Shown here: positions 59,032-64,000 of the stretch, one piece after another | How the letters are laid out: each line of letters begins with the position of its first letter | Position numbering within the stretch: the first letter of the stretch is position 1 | Assembly: GCF_024701375.2 (NCBI RefSeq) | Contig: NZ_CP113910.1 | Location: 248,001-312,000 of the forward strand | Length of the DNA: 64,000 bases | Reading direction: 5' to 3' | Source: Streptomyces sp. KMM 9044 | GTDB lineage: Bacteria > Actinomycetota > Actinomycetes > Streptomycetales > Streptomycetaceae | Made by a program: the position numbers and the translations under genes | The notes under the pieces: model-generated | Databases searched by the model: none | What the model was told of the DNA's origin: nothing | Seen by the model: the letters and a program-made list of their open reading frames with translations, nothing else

Positions 59032-59379
59032 ATGGTCGCCGCGGTCGGGGACAGGGGCGCGTTCGGGGGGGTTGCTGCACGTGCCGCCGCACGGATGGGC
59101 GTCGACCCCGCCGCGTACGTGGTGGTCGAGGACAGCCGCCCGGGCGTTCTGGCAGCCCGGGCCGCCGGTATGCGCCGCCTCGGGTACGGGGGAGGCGTCA
59201 CCCCCGCCGGCCGGCTGGCCGGGCCCGGGACCGCTGTGTTCCACGACCTGCGCGAGCTGCCCGCCCTGTTGACCGGGCGGGGCGCCGTCCTGACGGGGAC
59301 TGATAAGACGGCAAAGGCTTCTCGAGCTGCCCGCGCCAGGGGCCCACCGGCCGGTGGCCCGCACAAGCGGCGCGGCTGA
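59032..59379 (+). pseudogene. 3' fragment of a HAD-superfamily phosphatase
   Basis: Only the C-terminal third of a HAD-IA hydrolase is recognisable: ARMGVDPAAYVVVEDSRPGVLAARAAGMRRLGY (motif III/IV, VEDSxxGV) and GPGTAVFHDLRELPALL. The nucleophile motif DxDxT and the cap are absent. Copy B of the repeat element lies about 220 nt upstream, where the missing part would be. The open frame extends some 30 residues past the usual end. Confidence 0.65.
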
Positions 59380-59387
59380 TGCGCCGC

Positions 59388-59984
59388 TCAGGCCCTGCGG
59401 AAATCGAGTCGGTTCAGAAAGACGAGTTGGGCCCGCTTCCCGGGGAGCTCGATCTCCGGTCCTTTCACAAAACCGGCCCGCAGAAAGCGTGCGATCGCCC
59501 GGTCGTTACGGGCGTCCGGCTCCGCAACGATCCTCGTGCGGCTCCGATCCTCCAGCAGGTGGGTGAGGAAGGAGCCGAGCAGGGCGCCGGTGAAGCCCGG
59601 CGTGACCGGGCCGGCGGGCGGACCGATCAGTACGTGGATGCCGAAGTCTCCGGGCTGGACCTCGTAGCACTCGGCGACCGGGTCGTGTTCGGGCTCGTAG
59701 GTCTGGAACAGCGCGACCGGCCGGTCGTTCAGATGGACGAGGTAGGCATGATGAGTGGCCAGGGAGTCCACGTACTCGTAGATTTCCCGGACCCGCTCCC
59801 GGTCGGTGCCGAGCATGCCCCAGTATCGGGCGCGCTCCTGGGTGACCCAGGAGTGAAGGACGTCGACGTCCGCGCGCGGATCGACAACGCGCATACGGAC
59901 GGTGCCGAAACCGTCGATCACCTCCTGATGGGCAGTTGTATCGCGTCGTGGGGAGGCTGTTTCACCATGGTGAGCGTGCGTCAT
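59388..59984 (-). CDS. AlcB/IucB-like GNAT acyltransferase (hydroxamate siderophore type)
   Basis: 198 residues: TVRMRVVDPRADVDVLHSWVTQERARYWGMLG, YLVHLNDRPVALFQTYEPEHDPVAECYEVQPGDFGIHVLIGPP and LEDRSRTRIVAEPDARNDRAIARFLRAGFVKGPEIELPGKRAQLVFL. This is the signature set (WGMLG, EPEHD, GIHxLIGP, EPDxRN) of enzymes that acylate N-hydroxylysine or related hydroxylamines in siderophore assembly. It is divergent from the NRPS genes, 155 nt away. The start is ATG 59984. A hydroxylating monooxygenase is not in the window. Confidence 0.85.
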   Translation of the reverse strand: MTHAHHGETASPRRDTTAHQEVIDGFGTVRMRVVDPRADVDVLHSWVTQERARYWGMLGTDRERVREIYEYVDSLATHHAYLVHLNDRPVALFQTYEPEHDPVAECYEVQPGDFGIHVLIGPPAGPVTPGFTGALLGSFLTHLLEDRSRTRIVAEPDARNDRAIARFLRAGFVKGPEIELPGKRAQLVFLNRLDFRRA

Positions 59985-60082
59985 TCGCCTGCAATTCTCT
60001 CGGCCGACAGCCCGGACCGGGGGCCGTGGTGATCTCGCGGAAGGTGGTCACAAAGGAACGGAAGTGCCTACTTCGAATACAT

Positions 60083-60095
60083 GTAGGGTACCTAC
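60083..60095. promoter_or_regulatory. Inverted repeat in the NRPS divergent promoter region
   Basis: GTAGGGTACCTAC: 5-bp arms GTAGG/CCTAC around GTA, 45 nt before the condensation-domain gene. It shares AGG/CCT with iron boxes but the spacing is wrong, so I do not call it one. Confidence 0.35.
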
Positions 60096-60139
60096 GGAAT
60101 GCCGCCGGGAGAGGCAGGGAGAGAGAAGGGGACGCTGCC

Positions 60140-61480
60140 GTGACCATCAGGGAGATCCGGGTCGACGGAACGACGCGCGTGGCTGACGGCCCGTCAACGT
60201 TGCTTCAGGAGATGCTGTTCACGTCGATGTCGGCGAACCCCGGCGAGAACCGGGCCTTCAACGTGGAGAACGTCCACACCATCCGGGGCCCCTTGGACGT
60301 GGCGGCCTTAGCAAGAGCCGTGGACCTCGTCGTCGAGCGCCACGAATCCCTGCGTAGCGTCTTCGTCCCCGGCCCCGGAGGAGTCCGGCTCCGGACGCTG
60401 CCCGCCCCCACCGGTGCGCTGATCCAGTACGGCCGAACCGGAGCCGGTAGCCCGTCACCGGCCGAGGTGGACACCGCCGTCCGCGCCGACGCCGAGCACC
60501 TCTTCGACCTCGCCCACGAACGGCCCAGCCGATTCACGCTGCACCGCATCGACGAGGACGAGCACGTCCTGGTCGTCGTCGTGCACCACCTCGTCCTGGA
60601 CGGTTGGTCCATGGGCGTTCTGCTGGACGACCTCGCGACGGCGTACGAAGCAGTCCGCGTGGGCCGGTCGCCCTTCCACGGCCGACTTCCCTGCCGGCTG
60701 ACCGACTTCGCCCGGCATCAGCGAGCTCTGATCGCGTCCGCCGACGTCGTGCCGCTCCTCGACTTCTGGGCCCGGCAGTTGGCCGGCCTCCAGGACGGCT
60801 CCACCGTCCCTTACGACCGCCCCGCGCGTCCCTACCAGACCTTCGCCGGTGACCGGCTCGACTTCGAGCTGCCCGCCGCGCTCGCCGGCGGAGTCCGTGA
60901 CGTGGCGCGCACCGAACGGGTCACCGTCACCGCCGTCGCCCTGCTCGCCTACCAGATACTGCTGCGCGAGTACACCGGTCAGGAAGACGTCGTCGTCGGG
61001 GTCCCGACGGCGAACCGGTCCCGCCCGGGGACCCAGGACTGTGTGGGGCTCTTGATGAACACCCACTGCGTCCGGATGGGGCTGCCCGACCGCGCGCCGT
61101 TGCGCGACCTGCTGCACTCGAGCGCGCGGACCCTCACTGCCGCACTGCGGCACCAGGAAGTGCCGCTCGTCACCGTGTACGAGGACCTGATCGCGCGGTA
61201 CGGCGCGGACAACCTGCCGCCCTACCTCTTCCGAACGCTGTTCATCTGCCACACCCACCGGGTTGGTCCGCTGACGCTCGAGGGAACCGTCTGTGAGCGG
61301 AGGCCCTTCTCCCAACATGCCAGCAAGGCCGACATCACACTCAATGTCTGGCCCGACGACTCCGGCATCCGCTGCCAGATCGAGTACAACACCGACCTGT
61401 ACGACGCAGCAACGATCCACCAGGTGGCCGACCGTTACCAGGCCCTCATGTCGCGGATCGTCAACGACCTCGTCTGGTAG
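60140..61480 (+). CDS. Free-standing NRPS condensation domain
   Basis: 446 residues, a single condensation domain. C1/C2-like LLQEMLFTSMSANPGENRAFNVENVHTI, HESLRSVFVP, active site VVVHHLVLDGWSMGVLLDDL (HHxxxDG intact, second His catalytic), VGVPTANRSRPGTQDCVGLLMNTHCVR (C5) and the C-terminal SKADITLNVWPD. It should form a peptide or amide bond between carrier-bound substrates. No A or T domain is attached. The start is GTG 60140 with AAGGGGA 7 nt upstream. It is first of a rightward operon with folE-like and A-T genes. Confidence 0.9.
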   Translation: MTIREIRVDGTTRVADGPSTLLQEMLFTSMSANPGENRAFNVENVHTIRGPLDVAALARAVDLVVERHESLRSVFVPGPGGVRLRTLPAPTGALIQYGRTGAGSPSPAEVDTAVRADAEHLFDLAHERPSRFTLHRIDEDEHVLVVVVHHLVLDGWSMGVLLDDLATAYEAVRVGRSPFHGRLPCRLTDFARHQRALIASADVVPLLDFWARQLAGLQDGSTVPYDRPARPYQTFAGDRLDFELPAALAGGVRDVARTERVTVTAVALLAYQILLREYTGQEDVVVGVPTANRSRPGTQDCVGLLMNTHCVRMGLPDRAPLRDLLHSSARTLTAALRHQEVPLVTVYEDLIARYGADNLPPYLFRTLFICHTHRVGPLTLEGTVCERRPFSQHASKADITLNVWPDDSGIRCQIEYNTDLYDAATIHQVADRYQALMSRIVNDLVW

Positions 61481-61633
61481 CCGTCGTTCTTCGCCCGAGT
61501 GAGTATCCGCCCGCTCTCAGCAACCCGTACCGCTTCTGTGTCACCTCGTCCCGCCTCGCACGGCGGCAACGCACCGTGCCGCCCCCCCACCGCGCCCTAC
61601 CAGCGCCGTCCGTCCACCGACCGAGGAATCACG

Positions 61634-62236
61634 ATGCCCACGACCAGTGGCCCCCCGCCCCCCACCCTCCGGCCCGACCCCGCCGAGCAGGCGGTGACCG
61701 CACTACTGACCGCCCTCGGCGTGGGCCTGAGCGGTGCGTCCCTCGCCGACACCCCGCGCCGCGTCGCCGCCGCCTACCGCGAGCTCCTGGAGCCACACGA
61801 GTTCACGGCGACGGCCTTCCCCAACGACGGCGGCTGCGACGAACTCGTCCTCGTCCGGGCCATCCCTTTCAATTCGCTGTGCGAGCACCACCTGCTGCCG
61901 TTCTTCGGCGTGGCCCGTGCGGGCCACGTCCCCGGCAAACGCGTGCTCGGTCTGTCCAAGCCGGCACGCGTGGTCCAGGCGTCGGCACGCGGTCTCCAGA
62001 TCCAGGAGCGCATGACCACCCGCATCGCCGACTGGCTGACCGCCGAGCTCGAGCCGCTGGGTGCGGGCGCGGTGATCGAGGCCCAGCACACCTGTGTGTC
62101 GATACGGGGCATCAAAGCGATCGGCTCATGGACCACGACGTCCGCCCTGCGGGGCGTCCTGCGCGAGGATCAGCAGCGCCGCGAGGAGTTCATGCGCCGT
62201 ACGGAGAACACGGGCGACAGCGGAACGGGCTGGTGA
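61634..62236 (+). CDS. GTP cyclohydrolase I (FolE type) inside an NRPS operon
   Basis: 200 residues: ADTPRRVAAAYRELL, FNSLCEHHLLPFFGVARAGHVPGKRVLGLSKPARVV (zinc Cys/His residues) and QIQERMTTRIADWLTAELEPLGAGAVIEAQHTCVSIRGIKAIGSWTTTSALRG (second zinc Cys in HTCVSIRGI). All catalytic elements are present. It converts GTP to dihydroneopterin triphosphate. The gene abuts the A-T gene (TGATG overlap), so it belongs to the NRPS operon rather than to housekeeping folate synthesis, and is a likely second copy. The start is ATG 61634 with GAGGA upstream. Confidence 0.92.
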   Translation: MPTTSGPPPPTLRPDPAEQAVTALLTALGVGLSGASLADTPRRVAAAYRELLEPHEFTATAFPNDGGCDELVLVRAIPFNSLCEHHLLPFFGVARAGHVPGKRVLGLSKPARVVQASARGLQIQERMTTRIADWLTAELEPLGAGAVIEAQHTCVSIRGIKAIGSWTTTSALRGVLREDQQRREEFMRRTENTGDSGTGW

Positions 62237-64000
62237 TGACCTTCCGGCAGCCCGTCCCGGCACCGGAGCGGGTCGACCTGCTCGGCCTTTGCCTCGGTGC
62301 CGCACCCGCCCAGGACGCTCCCGCCGCAGACGCGCCCGCCCTCCGCGATACCCTCGGCCACACCCTCTCCCACCGGCAGCTGGCCGCCGCGGTCACGAGA
62401 CGTGCCCAGGAACTGAGAACCGCCGGGGCCGGACCGGGCCGGCTGGTACGCGTGGACGCGGAACGCACCACCGCGGCGATCGTGGACGTCCTCGCCGTTC
62501 TCGCCGCCGGAGCGGCCTTCGCCGCCCTTCCGCCCGGCGCGCAGCCCAGCCCGGGCGTCACCGAAGCCCTGGCCGGCCGGCGTGACCTGCCGGCCGGCGC
62601 CGCGTACGTGATGACCACCTCCGGCAGCACCGGTGTCCCCAAAGAAACCGTCGTGACCCGCGAGGGCCTGCGGCACGTCTTCGGCGCCCTGCGCGACGCG
62701 CCGCAACTCGGCTTCCCCAAGGACCTGGTCTGGGCACAGTTCCACCCGCTCTCGTTCGGCTACTCGATGTGCGAGATACTCGGCGCCCTCGCCTTCGGCG
62801 GCGAGATCGCCCTCGTGGAGCGTGAGGCACCGCTCACCTGCGACGGACTGCGCGCGCTCATGGGACCGGTACGGGCCGAGGGCCGCAGGACGGTGCTCTG
62901 CCTCACCCCGTCCGAACTGTCCCTGCTCACCGCGCGGCTGCTCGAAGCGAACATGGCCGCGCCGGAGTTCGTGCTGCTGAGCGGCGAGCCCGCGCACCGG
63001 GGACAGCTCACCGAGTTCCTGGCCCTGCCGGGCGGTGACGACAGCGTCGTCGTCAACACCTACGCGGCCACCGAGACGGCCGGGCAGATCACCGCAGACC
63101 GGGTCACCACCGCCTCCGTGTCCAGCATCATAGCCGGATACGTGGGCCACCCCCTCCCTGGTACGACAGTCACCCTGCTCACGGCCGACGGCACACCCGT
63201 CCCCCCGCGCGACCACGGAACCACCGGCGAGGTCCATGTCCAGGGCCCCGGCGTTGCCGCCGGTTACCTCGACCCGGGACAGACAGCGGCCCGCTTCGTC
63301 CCCGCCGGCCCACTCGGCGAAACCGCCTTCCGCACCGGTGACCTGGGCCGTTGGGCCGAGGACGGCGGCCTGCGGATCGTGGGCCGGGGTGGAAGGCGCC
63401 TCAAGGTCGCGGGCCGCTGGGTGTCGCTGGACGCCGTCGAACACGCCCTCCTCACCGGGGGGTGCGTCCGCGAAGCCTTCGCCGCGGCTGCGGAGATCCG
63501 CCTCGACGGGCCGGCCCCGCAGGAATGCCTCCAGGTCGTGGCCGTTCCCCGGGACCGCTCCGGGGTGACGGCGAAACGGATCCGCGGCCAGGTCGCCGCC
63601 GCCCTCGGCACGCCCCTCACCGTCCGCCTGGTGCTCGTCGACGCGCTGCCGCGTACGCCCCATGGCAAGGCCGACACCCGGGCACCGGCCATTCCCCCGG
63701 CCAGTGTGGCGGCCGTCGGCGGTCCGGCGAACCTGGTGCGGGCGGTGTGGGAGGAGATCCTCGGCGCCGGAATCCCGTACACCACCAACCTCTTCGAGGC
63801 GGGAGTGGACTCCCTCGGTGTCGTCACGGCCGCCGCCCGGCTCACCCGCGTGCTGGGCCGCCCCGTCACCGCGGCCTTCCTGCTCGACCACCCCCGCCTG
63901 GACCTCCAGATCGCTGCGCTGGCCACGAGCACCAGCCCCCCGGGGGCCGCCCCGGCGGCCCGTGGCGCGGCGGCCCGGCGGCCCGGGCTCGCCGAGCAGC
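62236..64000 (+). CDS. NRPS adenylation-thiolation protein, continues off window
   Basis: At least 588 residues. Adenylation domain cores: A3 YVMTTSGSTGVPKETVVT, A4 region FHPLSFGYSMCEILGALAFGG, A5 NTYAATETAGQI, A7 AFRTGDLGRW, A8 GRGGRRLKVAGRWVSL and A10 LPRTPHGKAD with the catalytic Lys. A carrier domain follows with NLFEAGVDSLGVV (phosphopantetheine Ser). Aligning FGYSMCE with the usual FDxSxWE places Gly where the alpha-amino-binding Asp235 (GrsA numbering) stands, so an alpha-amino acid is an unlikely substrate. The start is ATG 62236, overlapping the folE-like stop by 1 nt. A Pro/Ala linker at the window edge suggests another domain follows. Confidence 0.9.
   Translation, partial: MTFRQPVPAPERVDLLGLCLGAAPAQDAPAADAPALRDTLGHTLSHRQLAAAVTRRAQELRTAGAGPGRLVRVDAERTTAAIVDVLAVLAAGAAFAALPPGAQPSPGVTEALAGRRDLPAGAAYVMTTSGSTGVPKETVVTREGLRHVFGALRDAPQLGFPKDLVWAQFHPLSFGYSMCEILGALAFGGEIALVEREAPLTCDGLRALMGPVRAEGRRTVLCLTPSELSLLTARLLEANMAAPEFVLLSGEPAHRGQLTEFLALPGGDDSVVVNTYAATETAGQITADRVTTASVSSIIAGYVGHPLPGTTVTLLTADGTPVPPRDHGTTGEVHVQGPGVAAGYLDPGQTAARFVPAGPLGETAFRTGDLGRWAEDGGLRIVGRGGRRLKVAGRWVSLDAVEHALLTGGCVREAFAAAAEIRLDGPAPQECLQVVAVPRDRSGVTAKRIRGQVAAALGTPLTVRLVLVDALPRTPHGKADTRAPAIPPASVAAVGGPANLVRAVWEEILGAGIPYTTNLFEAGVDSLGVVTAAARLTRVLGRPVTAAFLLDHPRLDLQIAALATSTSPPGAAPAARGAAARRPGLAEQ

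Follow-up and report, generated by a model that had tools for sequence, protein, structure and literature searches.

The window, meaning the whole stretch of DNA analysed here, covers bases 248001-312000 (64,000 nucleotides) of the 7.3-Mb contig in the 7.4-Mb genome of Streptomyces sp. KMM 9044. Its last part holds the beginning of a gene cluster in which a loading protein of the nonribosomal peptide synthetase (NRPS) type and a polyketide synthase (PKS) are accompanied by GTP cyclohydrolase I (FolE) and a homologue of 6-pyruvoyl/6-carboxytetrahydropterin synthase (PTPS). The next 29 kb past the window were also analysed, and coordinates beyond 64000 are window numbering carried on past its edge.

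The cluster starts with a divergently transcribed GNAT acyltransferase gene (59388-59984, minus strand; PF13523, Acetyltransf_8, 163.9 bits) and, on the plus strand, a stand-alone condensation (C) domain with the motif HHLVLDG (60140-61480; PF00668, 234.6-235.3 bits). The open reading frame of the latter spans 59936-61480; homology to relatives sets in at the GTG at 60140, which is taken as its likely start. Next on the plus strand come folE (61634-62236; PF01227, 177.4 bits), whose reading frame spans 61499-62236 and whose likely ATG start at 61634 was counted on the translation, and the gene for the adenylation and carrier (A-T) protein (62236-64098, the last part outside the window), whose ATG at 62236 overlaps the folE stop codon by one base. 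Outside the window, the same run continues with a PKS of domain order KS-AT-KR-ACP (64095-68573), the PTPS homologue (68570-69100), an alpha/beta hydrolase with the motif GHSAG (69097-69939), an MFS exporter (69936-71150) and an NpdG-like NADP reductase (71179-71838). The called genes from folE through the MFS exporter overlap by 1-4 bases at each junction and are therefore probably translated jointly. The four genes that a first-pass annotation had named in 59388-64000 are all present, but they make up only the upstream part of this longer operon. A promoter scan of window positions 59800-60300 found none, and PADLOC gave no match for three proteins. Domain scans with Pfam and NCBIfam covered eight cluster proteins, and statements below on what is missing among the cluster proteins refer to these eight.

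An adenylation domain with glycine at position 235

The A domain gives an AMP-binding match of 123.8 bits, and its A10 lysine, Lys478, is found in 24 of the 25 proteins of the A-T clade, the 25th being a fragment (P0025, 426 aa). Residues 174-180 form the motif FGYSMCE that the first-pass annotation had pointed out, with Gly at the position of Asp235. Profile alignments restore no Asp there: the Gly lies opposite the Asp of both LgrA A1 and LgrA A2, with the motif free of gaps. Together with the preceding Phe and the Glu, this Gly is invariant across the clade (25/25; the Photobacterium galatheae protein reads FGYSICE), and such conservation shows it to be neither chance nor a sequencing slip. 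Asp235, which holds the alpha-amino group in amino-acid-activating A domains, is thus replaced in every member. The closest relative of the A-T protein, 82% identical, comes from an unclassified Streptomyces. As a control for reading such motifs by text pattern, 15 other A-domain loci of the same genome gave an FD motif in six, FHSSAFDFS in one and nothing in eight, so that this control carries no information.

The pocket positions, named by what we take to be the PheA numbering, are nearly fixed: Gly235 is accompanied by Tyr (15 proteins) or Phe (10) at 236, by Cys at both 239 and 278 and Thr at 322 (24/25 each), and by Gly at 330 and Gln at 331 (25/25 each). This points to one substrate across the clade. 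Position 301, which is Ser249 by printed alignment, is likewise invariant; it and position 299 were left out of the substrate reading. The earlier proposal of an acid that has no ordinary alpha-ammonium group is compatible with Gly235.

FolE and a PTPS homologue in the same gene run

The cluster FolE belongs to GTP cyclohydrolase I by its PF01227 match and by its intact zinc and catalytic motifs, CEHH and HTC. Among the NCBIfam models, it passes NF006826 (174.8 bits, cut-off 162) and NF006825 (174.2, cut-off 174) and falls below TIGR00063 (164.7, cut-off 181.6) and NF006824 (131.3, cut-off 202). The PTPS homologue, encoded three genes after folE, is a member of the PTPS/QueD superfamily, with a PF01242 match above the gathering score and a matching fold. 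It retains Cys49, conserved in 15 of 15 cluster members, as well as Asp93-His94 and Glu159, and it carries a motif HGY whose Tyr is invariant in all 73 PTPS relatives aligned. Both proteins are additional to paralogues elsewhere in the genome, that of FolE being located at C1:3268799. The second PTPS-family gene of the genome (C1:672537-672917, equivalent to L018:1501-1881, minus strand) reads HGA and is not a plain QueD either.

With PTPS joining FolE as a second pterin enzyme, the case for a pterin grows stronger. The link to pteridines suggested by the first-pass annotation is borne out by the PTPS gene and by the occurrence of FolE, A-T, PKS and PTPS together across phyla.

Conservation of the core genes

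Seven A-T loci were compared: that of KMM 9044 and those of Streptomyces sp. SBT349, Lentzea aerocolonigenes, a metagenome-assembled genome, Planosporangium thailandense, the gammaproteobacterium P. galatheae S2753 and a Streptomyces californicus plasmid (NZ_CP070243, one of six plasmid records found). The SBT349 and metagenome loci are cut by contig ends, and three Haloarcula loci (25-26% identity) were dropped as ordinary A domains. FolE is present in six of the seven loci, the seventh contig beginning inside the A-T gene, and PKS and PTPS are each present in six of seven, the remaining contig stopping inside it; the hydrolase and the exporter are found in all five loci that extend that far. 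The gene order is variable, with folE before the A-T gene in KMM 9044, SBT349, Planosporangium and S. californicus and after the hydrolase gene in Lentzea and Photobacterium.

The C domain and the GNAT are optional extras of the cluster. A C domain of the KMM 9044 type and the GNAT are present in three of the six loci with sequence upstream of A-T (KMM 9044, SBT349 and S. californicus). Planosporangium carries a different C gene, and no C domain was detected in the available Lentzea and Photobacterium flanks, which are limited in extent; the flanks of Lentzea, Planosporangium and Photobacterium likewise showed no GNAT.

All six PKSs have an intact Cys-His-His triad in KS, the Ser of AT, the Tyr of KR and the Ser of ACP. 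The AT motif is PYHS (PYHC in S. californicus), which we take to be of the malonyl type. In NCBIfam, the hydrolase weakly matches the hydrolase-like end of a model for acetoin dehydrogenase E2 (21.8 bits), and the exporter resembles EntS at 103.8 bits, below the cut-off of 324.

The cluster is rare. An A-T relative was found in one of 396 genomes of the phylum, namely KMM 9044 itself (query P0010, three candidates scored per genome), and the PTPS type in five of 394 genomes of the class and two of 394 of the family, in overlapping samples that each include KMM 9044. By equal longest-contig size, 14 of the 25 A-T clade proteins pair with a PTPS match among the 120 matches listed, which suggests that such pairs lie on the same contig. 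A-T and PTPS distances also co-vary: across 15 pairs, these being the 14 minus the fragment pair P0025/P0127 and plus the Photobacterium and S. californicus loci, the Spearman correlation was 0.83, and none of 9999 permutations reached it.

A related locus lies on plasmid pC6.5b of Rhizobium rhizogenes C6.5, which carries FolE, PTPS (~41%) and a C domain together with KS (34%) and KR-ACP (38%). The same stretch contains insertion elements and a sedoheptulose 7-phosphate cyclase gene. The C genes of this locus, of Planosporangium and of the three Streptomyces loci are of different lineages.

The P. galatheae locus, on contig NZ_JMIB01000028.1 at about 111-119 kb, is probably identical with the orphan biosynthetic gene cluster (BGC) 9 of that organism, which the accessible text of PMC7793655 describes as an A-PCP protein without a C domain and a PKS with a KR, the A-domain substrate not being predicted. 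This identification is drawn from the description and from the KR match: the PKS of the locus carries the best of 13 KR-family matches in the genome, and no other match both exceeds 30 bits and lies in a frame longer than 1000 aa; BGC 6 of P. galatheae is also an NRPS/type I PKS cluster. According to the same text, transcription of BGC 9 exceeded that of the holomycin gene in transition phase, at 8 h, under standard conditions and rose 10-fold with andrimid, and a compound of one amino acid plus one polyketide unit was sought and not found (PMC7793655). The string 'pter' occurs 0 times in the accessible text of that paper and in that of PMC5209532 and PMC9456166. Directly before the P. galatheae A-T gene lies a gene for a 340-aa protein (L026:8857-9879) with no Pfam or NCBIfam match.

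A proposed pathway with a pterin starter

The complete loci share an A-T loader, a single PKS module and a hydrolase for release as their core, with no common C domain, and this core thus suggests a scheme of loading, extension, reduction and release. FolE would convert GTP to 7,8-dihydroneopterin triphosphate, from which the PTPS homologue would form a tetrahydropterin substituted at position 6; the simplest candidate is the 6-carboxy compound (CPH4), in which the ring N5 would be a weakly basic amine needing no Asp235. The A domain would then adenylate this pterin acid and load it onto the adjoining T domain, and KS-AT-KR-ACP would add one malonyl unit and reduce the ketone, so that a 3-hydroxy-3-(pterin-6-yl)propanoyl thioester results. 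The alpha/beta hydrolase would release the product, perhaps as a lactam with N5, and MFS or ABC transporters would export it; in the Streptomyces subset, the C domain, the GNAT and the NpdG-like reductase may modify it further. Ions computed for such a product lie near m/z 256.104, 254.088 and 252.073 for the free acid at three oxidation states and near 238.094 after loss of water.

Taken together, these steps would make the cluster a compact secondary-metabolite operon for the synthesis and export of a pterin-polyketide hybrid, and we give the scheme in its entirety an even chance of being right. It is considerably safer to say that the product incorporates a pterin, whichever the route, and we regard this as likely. 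Loading of pterin-6-carboxylic acid by the A domain, with the PKS growing a carbon chain from it, would mean that a thiotemplated assembly line starts from a pterin; for this reading our confidence stops just short of even. Pterin loading followed by one extension is favoured because it is the shortest scheme that employs every gene common to the complete loci. The genes, their order, their intact catalytic motifs and their conservation are read from the DNA, and from them we infer all of the chemistry, above all the acid that is loaded.

Several observations weigh against a pterin starter. Many acids are compatible with Gly at 235. The PTPS homologue scores 41.6 bits in the QueD equivalog test, against a cut-off of 89.25, and it has HGY where QueD has HGH, Tyr replacing the last His in what would be the three-His zinc site of QueD; its product may therefore not be CPH4. 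The HGY motif also occurs in PTPS relatives with no such cluster nearby: four of them (L037-L040, from genomes G066, G169, G329 and G345, probably mycobacterial to judge by what similar proteins are called; 46-59% identity) have no A-T or PKS match within 18-19.5 kb each, so that a PTPS of the HGY type is not proof of the cluster. A FolE fragment lies beside PTPS in two of these four loci, and Arg replaces the catalytic Cys in both of the members that were aligned (two of the four); in a further genome, G416, PTPS, hydrolase and reductase are kept within 19.5 kb, behind a gene that by eye is transposase-like. None of the proteins scanned was recognised as a pteridine reductase. The shared ancestry of the hosts accounts for part of the 0.83 correlation, and for 13 of its 15 pairs equal contig size was the only basis of matching. 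Finally, the related Rhizobium locus has a C domain, and its adenylation-like match, which extends past the annotated carrier-protein gene, is weak (23%, E 3e-8).

Alternative explanations

The alternative that fares best, although we consider it unlikely, is modelled on the pepteridine pathway of Photorhabdus luminescens (plu2792-plu2799), reportedly the source of the first metabolites from a hybrid NRPS-pteridine pathway and the one such hybrid among the matches listed in the open-access literature. As far as the accessible text of PMC5384830 goes, a T-C protein takes part in making pepteridines, which are tetrahydropterins carrying an acyl group; homologues of FolE and PTPS are required for pepteridine A and strongly boost pepteridine B; the acyl part is built by pyruvate-dehydrogenase-like proteins, and its joining by a C domain was proposed by the authors. 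In a pathway of this kind, the A-T protein would load a different acid, the PKS would add a hydroxylated two-carbon unit, and the acyl chain would be moved to N5 of a free tetrahydropterin from FolE and PTPS, a transfer carried out either by the C domain or, in the role of an acyltransferase, by the alpha/beta hydrolase. Compared by gene content, both pathways cluster GTP cyclohydrolase I and PTPS homologues with NRPS carrier-protein machinery, and the joining of a pteridine to an acyl unit in pepteridine is likewise proposed here (PMC5384830).

The two nevertheless differ in their machinery, since a C-T protein, with no PKS or A domain, is described for pepteridine in that text (PMC5384830), whereas the KMM 9044 cluster has A-T, KS-AT-KR-ACP and a hydrolase. 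The C-domain genes of KMM 9044, SBT349, S. californicus, Planosporangium and R. rhizogenes would suit such a transfer, but they are of more than one lineage, and with none detected in the limited Lentzea and Photobacterium flanks, the mechanism shared by the loci probably does not rely on a C domain for joining. Moreover, no pyruvate-dehydrogenase-like parts were found among the cluster proteins, nor as a Pfam match of the hydrolase. With this defining part missing, the cluster is not classed as pepteridine-type, although it may follow a related working mode.

Since pterins are best known as cofactors, FolE and PTPS might instead supply a redox step, with no pterin in the product. This we regard as improbable, because no biopterin-type hydroxylase matched in the genome: PF00351 gave 0 matches genome-wide, while a Caulobacter control was positive. 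There is also no oxygenase among the cluster proteins, other pterin-using enzymes not having been searched for. The hydroxylase served by a pterin cofactor that the first-pass annotation envisaged outside the window consequently finds no support.

A further reading, foreshadowed by the same annotation, is a hydroxamate or other siderophore made with an AlcB/IucB-type acyltransferase. The GNAT does belong to Acetyltransf_8, the exporter is EntS-like, though below the cut-off, and SidA/IucA-type genes lie ~2.5 kb downstream in S. californicus; the GNAT of those genes, however, is their own and only 35% identical. No N-hydroxylase of the SidA/IucD type was found among the cluster proteins, and the GNAT is optional, for which reasons the siderophore reading is set aside as very improbable. 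The S. californicus genes in question (L030:28059-31752), encoding a SidA/IucD monooxygenase, a GNAT and IucA/IucC proteins, are probably a separate siderophore set. Scarcely any weight can be given to a 7-deazaguanine (preQ0-type) branch, of which FolE and QueD are the first two steps, because the cluster proteins include no QueE/QueC-type protein (no search for QueE covered the remaining genome) and the PTPS homologue lacks both the HGH motif and the QueD equivalog score.

Neighbouring features

Upstream of the cluster lies the remnant of a HAD-family phosphatase gene (59104-59289, plus strand; tblastn, 77% identity over 62 residues), which aligns to residues 161-222 of a 232-aa S. californicus protein; Streptomyces sp. 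SBT349 matches residues 1-221. A penicillin acylase gene remnant is found on the other side, at 71908-71979, outside the window. Next to the S. californicus cluster, both genes are annotated at full length, and to judge from these remnants the cluster edges seem decayed in KMM 9044. Further on, an open reading frame at 76507-80157, also outside the window, could by eye be taken for a B12-type radical SAM protein and is followed by a small gene; the pair resembles maturation sets for ribosomally synthesised and post-translationally modified peptides by eye only.

Implications

Among the matches listed in the open-access literature that was searched, there was no pterin-PKS pathway and no thiotemplated assembly line that starts from a pterin. 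In line with the first-pass suggestion of an undescribed pathway, literature searches, of papers only and of no cluster database, showed no known cluster with these downstream genes, but an orphan cluster of the same make-up had been noted in P. galatheae, as the accessible text of PMC7793655 shows.

If the pterin-starter reading is true, the cluster would represent a second NRPS-pteridine design with a different joining chemistry, in which the starter is fed by the cluster's own FolE and an unusual PTPS that has HGY and keeps the catalytic Cys. A pterin starter would also offer an explanation for the missing product of BGC 9, whose mass would then not be the sum of an amino acid and a ketide. 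Fluorescence and redox activity are frequent among pterins, and the product should therefore be traceable once its mass range is known. The cluster is common to distant bacteria and is thus probably useful to its hosts; the pterin-starter design, if it is real, would be spread over Actinomycetota, Gammaproteobacteria and, in related form, Rhizobium.

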